In this document: one piece after another, positions 59,455 through 64,000 of the stretch
Layout: every line of letters starts with the position of its first letter
Numbering within the stretch: the stretch's first letter is position 1
From: Spirochaetales bacterium
GTDB lineage: Bacteria; Spirochaetota; Spirochaetia; SZUA-6; RPPD01
Direction of reading: 5' to 3'
NCBI GenBank assembly: GCA_016929065.1
Contig: JAFGJO010000043.1
Coordinates: 1 to 64,000, forward strand
DNA length: 64,000 bases
Notes under the pieces: generated by a model
Databases searched by the model: none
The model's input: only the letters and a program-made list of their open reading frames with translations
What the model was told of the DNA's origin: nothing
Translations under genes and position numbers: made by a program

Positions 59455-59742
59455 TTATGCTGATTTACTTAATGGATCTTTAACATCCTGGCTTTCTAAA
59501 TAAATAGTTTCTGGTGCTATATCAATGCATTGATAAGGATCATACGTGCCGCTGATGTCCCAAGCAAGCGTGGAATTCATAACGGTGCATTTTTTTATGA
59601 AATCTGAGATATTGGAAATTTGTTCAAATACGCCCTTTCCAATAAGCGGTTTAAAATCATAAAGTTTAATGGTTCCATCATCAAAATAACAATATACAGT
59701 GAAATCATTTTGAGGAAAAACCTGAACAATGGAGTGAAGCAT
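59455..59742 (-). CDS. DUF2442-family protein (putative antitoxin-side partner)
   Basis: 95 residues: MLHSIVQVFPQNDFTVYCYF then DDGTIKLYDFKPLIGKGVFE and STLAWDISGTYDPYQCIDI, the DUF2442 pattern. The family is usually paired with DUF4160 and is listed among predicted toxin-antitoxin modules, but which partner is toxic is unproven. AGGAGGT precedes the ATG and overlaps the DUF4160 stop. Confidence 0.8.
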   Translation of the reverse strand: MLHSIVQVFPQNDFTVYCYFDDGTIKLYDFKPLIGKGVFEQISNISDFIKKCTVMNSTLAWDISGTYDPYQCIDIAPETIYLESQDVKDPLSKSA

Positions 59743-59751
59743 TTTTACCTC

Positions 59752-60012
59752 CTATTTTAATGGATCAATTTTAATCAGTTCTTTATGTTGTTGAGAAGCT
59801 TTCCAGTTTTTGGAAAGTTCACCTTCATGTAATTCACACCAAGCAAGAACAAGTTTTAATTGCCGAGATGGAAGTTGGCCCTTGATGACCACGGCATCTT
59901 CAATCGAGATGATAGCCCTGAAATCACCATACTCAGCGTGGAAATGAGGTGGAAAGTGCTCATCCCAGTACATATAGATTTTTATACCGAAAAATTCTGC
60001 AATCAATGGCAT
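59752..60012 (-). CDS. DUF4160-family protein
   Basis: 86 residues: MPLIAEFFGIKIYMYWDEHF followed by PPHFHAEYGDFRAIISIED, the DUF4160 signature with the PPHFHAEY histidines, and a final ELSKNWKASQQ helix. First gene of the pair. Its promoter is at 60020-60048 and no Shine-Dalgarno is seen, so it may be leaderless. Confidence 0.85.
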   Translation of the reverse strand: MPLIAEFFGIKIYMYWDEHFPPHFHAEYGDFRAIISIEDAVVIKGQLPSRQLKLVLAWCELHEGELSKNWKASQQHKELIKIDPLK

Positions 60013-60093: not shown

Positions 60094-60133
60094 GTTTCCA
60101 TCCACGCGCCCGCATGGGGCGCGGATGGAAACC
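60094..60133. repeat. Solitary type I-C-like CRISPR repeat in a 41-nt palindrome
   Basis: The 32 nt from 60094 begin GTTTCCATCCACGCGCCCGC and continue ATGGGGCGCG, as in type I-C CRISPR repeats. Only one copy is present. The sequence runs on into GATGGAAACC, so the whole 60093-60133 is a palindrome (GGTTTCCATC/GATGGAAACC and CGCGCCC/GGGCGCG). Translating it gives the well-known artefact peptide VSIHAPAWGAD. No cas gene is in the window. Confidence 0.7.
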
Positions 60134-60275: not shown

Positions 60276-60372
60276 GGGTTCGGCGGTTAATCCCTCTTTT
60301 TTCCTTCATTAAAAGTTTTTTCAGGTATGTATTTTTTTAAAAAAAAGCTTGAAATAAATTTAAAAAAAAGAT

Positions 60373-60400
60373 TAAACTTTAAAGAAGCAGATACCGAAGA
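60373..60400 (+). promoter_or_regulatory. Weak flagellar sigma-28-like promoter candidate for flaB
   Basis: TAAA (60373-60376), 16-nt spacer, ACCGAAGA (60393-60400). This resembles TAAA-N15-GCCGATAA with one extra spacer base and 3 mismatches in the -10. It would give a leader of about 200 nt. Confidence 0.3.
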
Positions 60401-60541: not shown

Positions 60542-60610
60542 CTGCGTTGGTGAACGCAGAATATTCAAACGGGCACGGATGCCCGTGTAAACAGTTTCAA
60601 GGAGGAAACT
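60542..60610 (+). promoter_or_regulatory. Three-hairpin flaB leader with Shine-Dalgarno in a loop (CsrA-type)
   Basis: Hairpin 1: CTGCGTT/AACGCAG, loop GGTG (60542-60559). Hairpin 2: ACGGGCA/TGCCCGT, loop CGGA (60569-60586). Hairpin 3: AGTTTC/GAAACT, loop AAGGAG (60593-60610), so the Shine-Dalgarno is in the loop and the ATG at 60611 follows directly. GGA in a hairpin loop is the CsrA/RsmE recognition form. Confidence 0.6.
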
Positions 60611-61471
60611 ATGATAATCAATCACAACATGAGTGCAATCTTTGCACAAAACAGAATGAAGCAGAACGTTCAGATGACTGACAAGGCACAGGAAAAACTG
60701 TCGTCAGGAATGAGAATTGTTCGCGCCGGCGATGATGCGTCAGGGCTTGCCGTTTCTGAAAAACTCCGATCACAAATCAGGGGTCTTAATCAGGCTGAAA
60801 TGAATGCTGAAAACGGCGTTTCTTTCATCCAGGTTGCTGAAGGATATCTTCAGGAAACACAAGACGTGCTGCAGAGAATCCGCGAACTTTCAGTTCAGGC
60901 TTCCAACGGTATTTATTCTGACGAAGACCGCATGCAGATCCAGGTTGAAATTTCCCAGCTGATCGACGAAGTTGACCGTGTTGCTTCTCATGCCCAGTTT
61001 AACGGAATGAACATGCTTACCGGCCGTTTTGCAAAACTCACCGGCGAAAATGTTATTACTGCTTCCATGTGGTTCCACATTGGCGCAAATATGGATCAGC
61101 GCGAGCAGGTCTTTATCGGCACAATGACCGCATATGCACTCAATGTGAAAGAAATCGGCAGTGACGAAATTCTGTCACTCAGAACTCCTGATGGTGCAAA
61201 CCGTTCAATCGGTATCGTTGACACAGCGCTTACAAAAGTCAGCAAACAGCGCGCAGATCTCGGTGCATATCAGAACAGACTTGAACATGCAGCACGCGGA
61301 CTTTCAGTTGGTGCAGAAAACATGCAGGCTTCTGAATCCAGGATTCGTGATGCAAACATGGCAAAGGAAATGGTTGAATTCACCAAAGATTCTATTCTTG
61401 TTCAATCAGCTACTGCCATGCTGGCACAGGCAAACTCACGTACACAGGTGGTATTACAGCTTCTCGGTTAA
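60611..61471 (+). CDS. flaB: Core flagellin FlaB, first copy
   Basis: 286 residues. N- and C-terminal flagellin domains are joined by a short middle, as in spirochaetal core filaments. Landmarks: [56 protein letters not shown] and the C-terminal [15 protein letters not shown] with [16 protein letters not shown]. No signal peptide; exported by the flagellar type III system. The leader is described at 60542-60610. About 75% similar by eye to the next gene. Confidence 0.95.
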
Positions 61472-61550: not shown

Positions 61551-61598
61551 AAGGCAATAGAGGTCCCCTGCCCCTCGGCGGGGGTACCTTTTTGCCTT
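61551..61598 (+). terminator. Terminator-like hairpin between the two flaB genes
   Basis: The stem AGGT-CCC/GGG-ACCT (61561-61589) has an extended outer stem AAGGCA/TGCCTT (61551-61556/61593-61598) and a T-run 61589-61593. Downstream flaB then lacks a strong own promoter, so partial readthrough is likely. Confidence 0.65.
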
Positions 61599-61693
61599 CT
61601 CACAAAGTAACGGGAACGGATGCAGAAAGGAAGCGCGAAATTACTTTCTGTTACACTTTGTATAGGCACAACAATTCAGGCAATGGATGCCGG

Positions 61694-62668: not shown

Positions 62669-62706
62669 GATGGGGAGGGGTTCGCGCCTCCTCCTTCATC
62701 TTTTTT
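62669..62706 (+). terminator. Intrinsic terminator before flaG
   Basis: The stem GATGGGGAGG with CCTCCTCC-CATC is followed by TTTTTT at 62701-62706. The flaG Shine-Dalgarno begins immediately after, so flaG expression depends on readthrough. Confidence 0.65.
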
Positions 62707-62722: not shown

Positions 62723-63082
62723 ATGGGCATTGAAGTCCCAAACGTGATTACACCAAATCACACAACATCTCCCGAAATTCAGCAGCAGGAAAAGAATATT
62801 CCAAAGCCTCAAATTGTGCATAAAACCCCTGCCCCCCCACCCCTGGAAGAAGAAATGTCTACAGAAGACATGAAAATCGCGCTGGATGCGCTTGCCAGGG
62901 CGGCAAGTGTTTTTAACAAACGGCTCAGTTTTTCGGTAAATGAAAGCATTGGACGGATCGTCGTAAAGATCATCGACAATGAAACCGATAAAGTAATCAA
63001 GGAGATCCCCGAACCTGCGATGCAGCGTCTTCTTGCACGGCTAAAGGAGGCTGTCGGGTTAATTGTTGATGAGACAATCTGA
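62723..63082 (+). CDS. flaG: FlaG-family flagellar protein
   Basis: 119 residues. A Pro/Gln-rich N-terminal part (about 1-45) precedes the FlaG domain (about 48-117: RLSFSVNESIGRIVVKIID, VIKEIPEPAMQRLLARLKEA). FlaG affects filament length and lies between flagellin and fliD in many bacteria. TACAAGGA (62706-62713), the same CsrA-like Shine-Dalgarno as the second flaB. Confidence 0.9.
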   Translation: MGIEVPNVITPNHTTSPEIQQQEKNIPKPQIVHKTPAPPPLEEEMSTEDMKIALDALARAASVFNKRLSFSVNESIGRIVVKIIDNETDKVIKEIPEPAMQRLLARLKEAVGLIVDETI

Positions 63083-63212: not shown

Positions 63213-63251
63213 ACGCCATGGGCCATTGCAGTGCGGAGGGGAACGAAAAAC

Positions 63252-64000
63252 ATGTCAGATATCACCATTCCAGGTGTAACAGGTAAAATAGACACAAAAG
63301 GGATGATCAAGGCGATCATGGACGCTGAACGTGTGCCTTTGGAGCGCATGCAGGGTGAAGTCGATACTTATAAAAAAAACAAGCGCGTCTGGCTTGATTT
63401 AAATCTGAATATATCCAAATTCAAGGAAAGTGCAGCAGACTTATGGGGACATAATAATCCCTTTAATGCGAAAAAAGCAAAAAGCAGCAACGAATCAATT
63501 CTTACGGCCATTGCGACCAGAAAAGCCATCATCGATGAAAAACAGCTCAAAGTTAAGCAAATCGCAACAGCAGACCGTTTTATGTCAATGAGCCTCCCCA
63601 GGGACTTTACGGTAAAGGCCGGCCAGTATACGTTTCAAATAGGCGACAAGGAATTCAGCTTTAAATTCAAAGGCGGTGATCTTGAAGATTTTGCAGAGGC
63701 AATCAATACAAAAGCAGACAAATACCTGAAAGCAACCGTAGTCAACAATACATCTGACACCAGGGTCATTCTCATTGAATCTTTGAAAACAGGCAGTAAA
63801 AACAAACTCACCTTTAAAGGGACCGCAGCTGAATTCGGCGAGGAAGCCGGCATGTTCAAACGCCAGCCAACGGTGAACCGGGAAATATCTTTGGAATCGT
63901 CATCAATTGAAAAGACAGGTTCTACAACAAATAACGGGATATTCAGGGTTCAGGATGGTGAACTCACCGTCGATCCCGGGACCTCTGTCACCATTCCGGT
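63252..64000 (+). CDS. fliD: Flagellar hook-associated protein 2 (filament cap), 5' part
   Basis: ATG at 63252 after GCGGAGGGGAACG; open to the window end, about 249 codons seen. MSDITIPGVTGKIDTKGMIK then MDAERVPLERMQGEVDTYKK is the FliD N-terminal region; then FTVKAGQYTFQIGDKEFSF and the following segment give the hook-associated D2-D3-like strands. Caps the filament and assists flagellin polymerisation. Confidence 0.92.
   Translation, partial: MSDITIPGVTGKIDTKGMIKAIMDAERVPLERMQGEVDTYKKNKRVWLDLNLNISKFKESAADLWGHNNPFNAKKAKSSNESILTAIATRKAIIDEKQLKVKQIATADRFMSMSLPRDFTVKAGQYTFQIGDKEFSFKFKGGDLEDFAEAINTKADKYLKATVVNNTSDTRVILIESLKTGSKNKLTFKGTAAEFGEEAGMFKRQPTVNREISLESSSIEKTGSTTNNGIFRVQDGELTVDPGTSVTIP

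Follow-up and report, generated by a model that had tools for sequence, protein, structure and literature searches.

A conserved two-hairpin element in spirochaete flagellin leaders, a putative CsrA-responsive translation switch

The window, i.e. the whole stretch of 64,000 nucleotides analysed here, closes with a flagellin locus in which flaB1 and flaB2 are followed by flaG and the 5' part of fliD. The start codon of flaB1 is preceded by three hairpins and, further upstream, by a candidate promoter. The features of the locus are:

60372..60397, plus strand: putative sigma-28-type flagellin promoter (TAAA, about 15 nt, NCCGA; here ACCGA)
60542-60559, plus strand: hairpin 1, CTGCGTT-GGTG-AACGCAG, loop GGTG; probably not a CsrA site
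60569-60586, plus strand: hairpin 2, ACGGGCA-CGGA-TGCCCGT, 7-bp stem and CGGA tetraloop; putative upstream CsrA-type site
60593-60610, plus strand: hairpin 3, AGTTTC-AAGGAG-GAAACT, 6-bp stem and AAGGAG hexaloop; putative second CsrA-type site
60611..61471, plus strand: flaB1, flagellin (Pfam Flagellin_N 2e-42, Flagellin_C 8e-25)
61565..61584, plus strand: terminator-like hairpin 3' of flaB1 (consensus scan)
61679..61691, plus strand: hairpin preceding flaB2, a weaker relative of hairpin 2 with a 4-bp stem and ATGGA pentaloop
61732..62595, plus strand: flaB2, flagellin (Pfam), with its Shine-Dalgarno (SD) sequence AAGGAGGG outside any comparable hairpin
62723..63082, plus strand: flaG (Pfam FlaG 4e-22)
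63231..63998, plus strand: fliD, 5' part, continuing past the end of the window (Pfam FliD_N 2e-19)

Of the 176 regions upstream of flaB, 49 contain the promoter pattern (TAAA-N13..17-NCCGA), whereas shuffled sequences give 6 on average; from the start site that the pattern implies, the flaB1 leader would be about 200 nt long. In Treponema denticola, flaB2 has a mapped sigma-28 start site and a 124-nt leader (PMC9481697). Another terminator-like hairpin, at 62672-62696 between flaB2 and flaG, suggests that flaG-fliD may be transcribed separately or be subject to attenuation. Upstream of the locus, adjacent genes for DUF2442 and DUF4160 proteins (59455-60012, minus strand) resemble a small two-gene module. 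They are followed by a single inverted repeat at 60094-60131 (GTTTCCATCCACGCGCCC-GCAT-GGGGCGCGGATGGAAAC), which we take to resemble a lone type I-C-like CRISPR repeat and of which the window holds no second copy.

The original prediction described three hairpins within 69 nt, with the loops GGTG, CGGA and AAGGAG, and read them as an array of CsrA sites. The hairpins themselves are exactly as described: the coordinates agree, and the 72-nt leader stretch folds at a minimum free energy (MFE) of -26.7 kcal/mol (z = -5.0), a value as low as which was reached by 0 of 200 shuffles. All three are found in both the MFE and the centroid structure, and they are retained in a longer fold of 295 nt, comprising the putative leader of about 200 nt and 90 nt of coding sequence. 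The placement of the SD in the last loop, with a stem running up to the ATG, is borne out as well: AAGGAG occupies 60599-60604, the stem finishes at 60610 and the flaB1 ATG stands at 60611. The GGA motifs lie at 60577-60579 in hairpin 2 and at 60601-60603 in hairpin 3. The leader accordingly shares two properties of CsrA-repressed flagellin leaders, namely at least two GGA motifs of which at least one lies in a hairpin loop, and a GGA site that overlaps the SD.

Hairpin 1 does not belong with the other two. A GGA is missing from its GGUG loop and relatives do not conserve its sequence; it is probably not a CsrA site and was rejected as one, and the array shrinks from three sites to two. The sister genome and some other flaB1 leaders have a different hairpin at roughly the same place, which is weak evidence at best in favour of hairpin 1; the upstream segments of flaB1-type leaders fold barely better than shuffles (mean z -0.66).

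Absence of the hairpins from relatives had been named beforehand as evidence against CsrA control; hairpins 2 and 3 are conserved there. A flagellin search of 61 genomes yielded matches in 49, and a scan of a named collection added 80 further flagellin loci, all labelled as spirochaete (Treponema, Spirochaetaceae and others); 176 flagellin leaders were collected from these two sources. Of the first 89 leaders, 82 have a hairpin with GGA and a stem of 5 bp or more upstream of the SD; in dinucleotide shuffles the average is 16. By a stricter positional test the GGA hairpin is found in 121 of 170 flaB leaders (71%) versus 4 of 126 GGAGG-SD leaders outside flaB (3.2%).

The two stems are maintained by compensatory change, the check originally proposed for them, with a very strong signal in hairpin 2 and a weaker, moderate one in hairpin 3. 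In alignment A1, whose 69 leaders were chosen for hairpin 2 pairing and which therefore inflates the hairpin 2 counts, helix 2 shows standard pairs in 90.9% of the cells versus 28-40% when it is slid, and a covariation score of 0.659 versus 0.250 in shuffles. Helix 3, for which no selection was applied in the same alignment, scores 0.342 versus 0.140. Since shuffling leaves shared ancestry uncorrected, better guards are provided by the slid helices and by the ranking on mutual information. To avoid circularity the leaders were also anchored on nothing but a sequence motif, A-N-GGA near -34, and this set is not inflated because its members were not chosen by hairpin 2 pairing. Here the top five APC-corrected mutual-information pairs are all paired positions of the hairpin 2 stem, and the pair that closes the SD hairpin ranks sixth.

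In the order to which the window belongs helix 3 is strong; in many of the leaders labelled Treponema, as in those of flaB2, it is weak. Judged from these alignments it is real in a subset of leaders and not universal; an SD hairpin common to all leaders is ruled out, its presence varying by lineage and paralogue. Given that many relatives, and flaB2 too, have a weak helix 3 or none, the SD site presumably need not be a hairpin everywhere. The loop context of hairpins 2 and 3 is CANGGANG-like, in agreement with the CsrA consensus RUACARGGAUGU, and the context in the flaB3 leader of the window's genome is ACAAGGATGT. From GGA to GGA the distance is 24 nt in the flaB1 leader and 20-33 nt, with a median of 24, across leaders.

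The check for fliW and csrA in the genome was equally positive: both are present as single copies and adjacent to each other (fliW at C23:7126-7479; csrA at G000:C23:7515-7673, E = 7e-25), with a gap of about 35 nt between the matched domains. FliW matches chain 5dmb_A at 1e-27, and residues 2-71 of the 88-aa CsrA align with chain 5dmb_D (7e-19); the two chains are the FliW and CsrA partners in one solved complex. The alignment includes part of the C-terminal extension, and CsrA thereby has the extended C-terminus for FliW binding that characterizes the FliW-CsrA-flagellin switch. Among the relatives, csrA, fliW and flaB-matching genes occur in the same 49 of 61 genomes and all three are lacking from the same 12; two of the 49 flaB matches, those in G002 and G011, are weak, and both of these genomes are incomplete. 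This co-occurrence partly reflects shared loss with motility, because csrA, fliW and flaB are all components of flagellar gene sets.

Taken together, we consider it very probable that the leader is a cis-acting, CsrA-responsive switch of flagellin translation, in which CsrA bridges hairpin 2 and the SD and FliW relieves the block. One CsrA dimer would be tethered to hairpin 2 through the GGA in the tetraloop, and the second RNA-binding face of the same dimer would contact the GGA of the SD hexaloop 24 nt downstream. This distance, like the whole span of 20-33 nt seen across leaders, lies within the 10-63 nt between sites that CsrA dimers are reported to bridge (PMC7652899). The bridged CsrA would block 30S binding and translation of flaB1. 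Upon export of flagellin, FliW would be freed from FlaB and bind CsrA, which would lift the block and let flagellin synthesis keep step with assembly. In this proposal CsrA binding, repression and the antagonism by FliW are carried over from characterised relatives. For hairpins 2 and 3 the CsrA-type control that was originally predicted is strongly favoured by their conservation, covariation, loop context and spacing and by the fliW-csrA pair; it does not extend to hairpin 1.

A covariance model of hairpins 2 and 3 (R1) has matches in 44 of the 61 relatives' genomes, most of those listed finishing at a flagellin start codon. In a wider sample of 296 Spirochaetota genomes, 186 have a match. 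Searches of this kind indicate that the two-hairpin element is conserved over most of the spirochaete phylum and that it is near-exclusive to flaB. No family in Rfam 15 explains the leader, the best scores lying far below the gathering thresholds. The leaders of genomes inferred to be Borrelia were not found with R1; in such a genome the flagellin leader still carries a hairpin with the loop TGGA, followed by a GGAGG SD. In one relative a well-formed copy of the element (L194, G003:C121:16603-16650, E = 1.8e-6) is followed by GTG and an unrelated 66-aa frame and sits upstream of an intact flaB2, which would reflect either an assembly join or a lost flaB1.

Within the window's own genome, R1 gives strong matches only before flaB1 (E = 8e-11) and flaB3 (E = 2.5e-9); flaB2 falls under its detection and single-site targets would escape it. 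The weaker matches, when inspected singly, showed no convincing tie to any regulated gene. A broad CsrA regulon acting through the same element was rejected, as these matches seem to reflect coincidence, an ordinary SD or a dispersed repeat. The repeat, of about 116 nt, occurs in seven copies (L275-L281, on contigs C48, C1, C44, C36, C57, C60 and C50 of G000) and in none of 30 relatives. It carries a TTGGGCATGGATGCCCAA hairpin, the GGA loop of which resembles that of hairpin 2, and is likely the end of a mobile element, because some of its copies lie near contig ends.

These searches also bear on a different role for the leader, that of a sponge which mainly draws CsrA off other mRNAs. Flagellin mRNA is usually abundant, all three flaB genes examined in the window's genome carry GGA hairpins, and titration has been demonstrated for Campylobacter jejuni flaA (PMC4894983). 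On the other hand, R1 gives no other strong two-hairpin target in this genome, with the reservation on single-site targets made above, and titration would add to repression rather than replace it; we therefore regard the sponge as an improbable main function. The SD hairpin could also act independently of CsrA, either by sensing temperature as an RNA thermometer or by slowing translation intrinsically. With the SD in the loop and the stem reaching the ATG, a 6-bp AU-rich stem would melt when warmed, but in known thermometers the SD is paired and not, as here, exposed in the loop. Furthermore, helix 2 is better conserved than helix 3 and has an invariant GGA that a thermometer would not need, and csrA and fliW co-occur with the flaB-matching genes, which makes this explanation very unlikely. 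Least credible of all is that hairpins 2 and 3 serve the stability or processing of the mRNA, with a nuclease or the ribosome as binding partner in place of CsrA: leader hairpins can indeed protect mRNAs from decay, but stability alone would leave the loop unfixed, whereas an invariant GGA in a CsrA-consensus loop on a freely varying stem is typical of CsrA/RsmA recognition.

The element that we propose to be a CsrA-responsive switch differs between the flaB paralogues. In the flaB1/flaB3 type the loop is a tetra- or hexaloop and an SD hairpin is frequent; in the flaB2 type a pentaloop is frequent and an SD hairpin rare. An SD stem of at least 4 bp is found in 6 of 53 flaB2 leaders versus 51 of 123 others. 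A pentaloop is present in 18 of 40 placed flaB2 hairpins versus 2 of 75 in the other paralogues, a difference that is provisional, as the paralogue type was taken from the best match and is ambiguous for 39 leaders. One speculative extension, which we would not expect to hold but find worth stating, is that the graded versions of the element differ in their affinity for CsrA, so that a single regulator would set the proportions of the core proteins in the filament. If the loops of the paralogues matter, they offer a testable route to the ratio of the several flagellins in a spirochaete filament.

A leader with two CsrA hairpins is an established layout, and the compact arrangement that had been thought striking has a precedent in the 45-nt flaA leader of C. 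jejuni with its hairpins SL1 and SL2, which is part of a CsrA and FliW system (Dugar et al. 2016, PMC4894983). There, two footprinted ANGGA-loop hairpins, the second on the ribosome-binding site, are spaced 21 nt apart and show compensatory changes in relatives (PMC4894983). The flaB1 leader shares the two GGA-loop hairpins, the position of the second over the ribosome-binding site, a similar spacing (24 nt), the compensatory changes and the presence of fliW and csrA. It differs in a probable length of about 200 nt, in having a tetraloop in hairpin 2 where flaA has two hexaloops, and in the occurrence of several flaB paralogues. Sites of the same kind, BS1 and BS2, have been predicted for Clostridioides difficile fliC (PMC8523840). 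Similarly, hag of Bacillus subtilis is described, in the papers through which it is cited here, as having two CsrA sites, with BS2 over the SD (Yakhnin 2007; Mukherjee 2011, cited in PMC7652899, PMC8523840), and as subject to FliW antagonism and flagellin homeostasis (cited in PMC7652899, PMC8523840); two putative sites, one of them over the SD, is also the arrangement found here.

Within the spirochaetes, CsrA of Borrelia burgdorferi was reported, as cited, to inhibit the initiation of flaB translation (Sze 2011, cited in PMC3757020). That gene belongs to the same family and phylum as flaB1, and in the inferred Borrelia genome the hairpin lies farther from the start codon than it does here. 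In Leptospira, a gel shift (EMSA) shows binding of CsrA to a GGA before flaB (PMC8668096). Because flaB of Leptospira interrogans is up-regulated upon CsrA overexpression (PMC8668096), the sign of the regulation could differ among lineages. For T. denticola, both flaB1 and flaB2 are said to have putative CsrA sites close to the SD, and a flgN-flgK-flgL-fliW-csrA cluster is described (PMC9481697); fliW and csrA are thus neighbours in that account as they are here. Its cited passages give no structure or covariation, both of which are available in the present case. What appears to be new, judged from the alignments and searches, is a phylum-wide, covariation-supported element that is absent from Rfam 15, together with the difference between paralogues. 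In this way the scattered reports on CsrA and flagellin in a few spirochaetes would be brought together in one phylum-wide RNA element, with a model that can be used for annotation.
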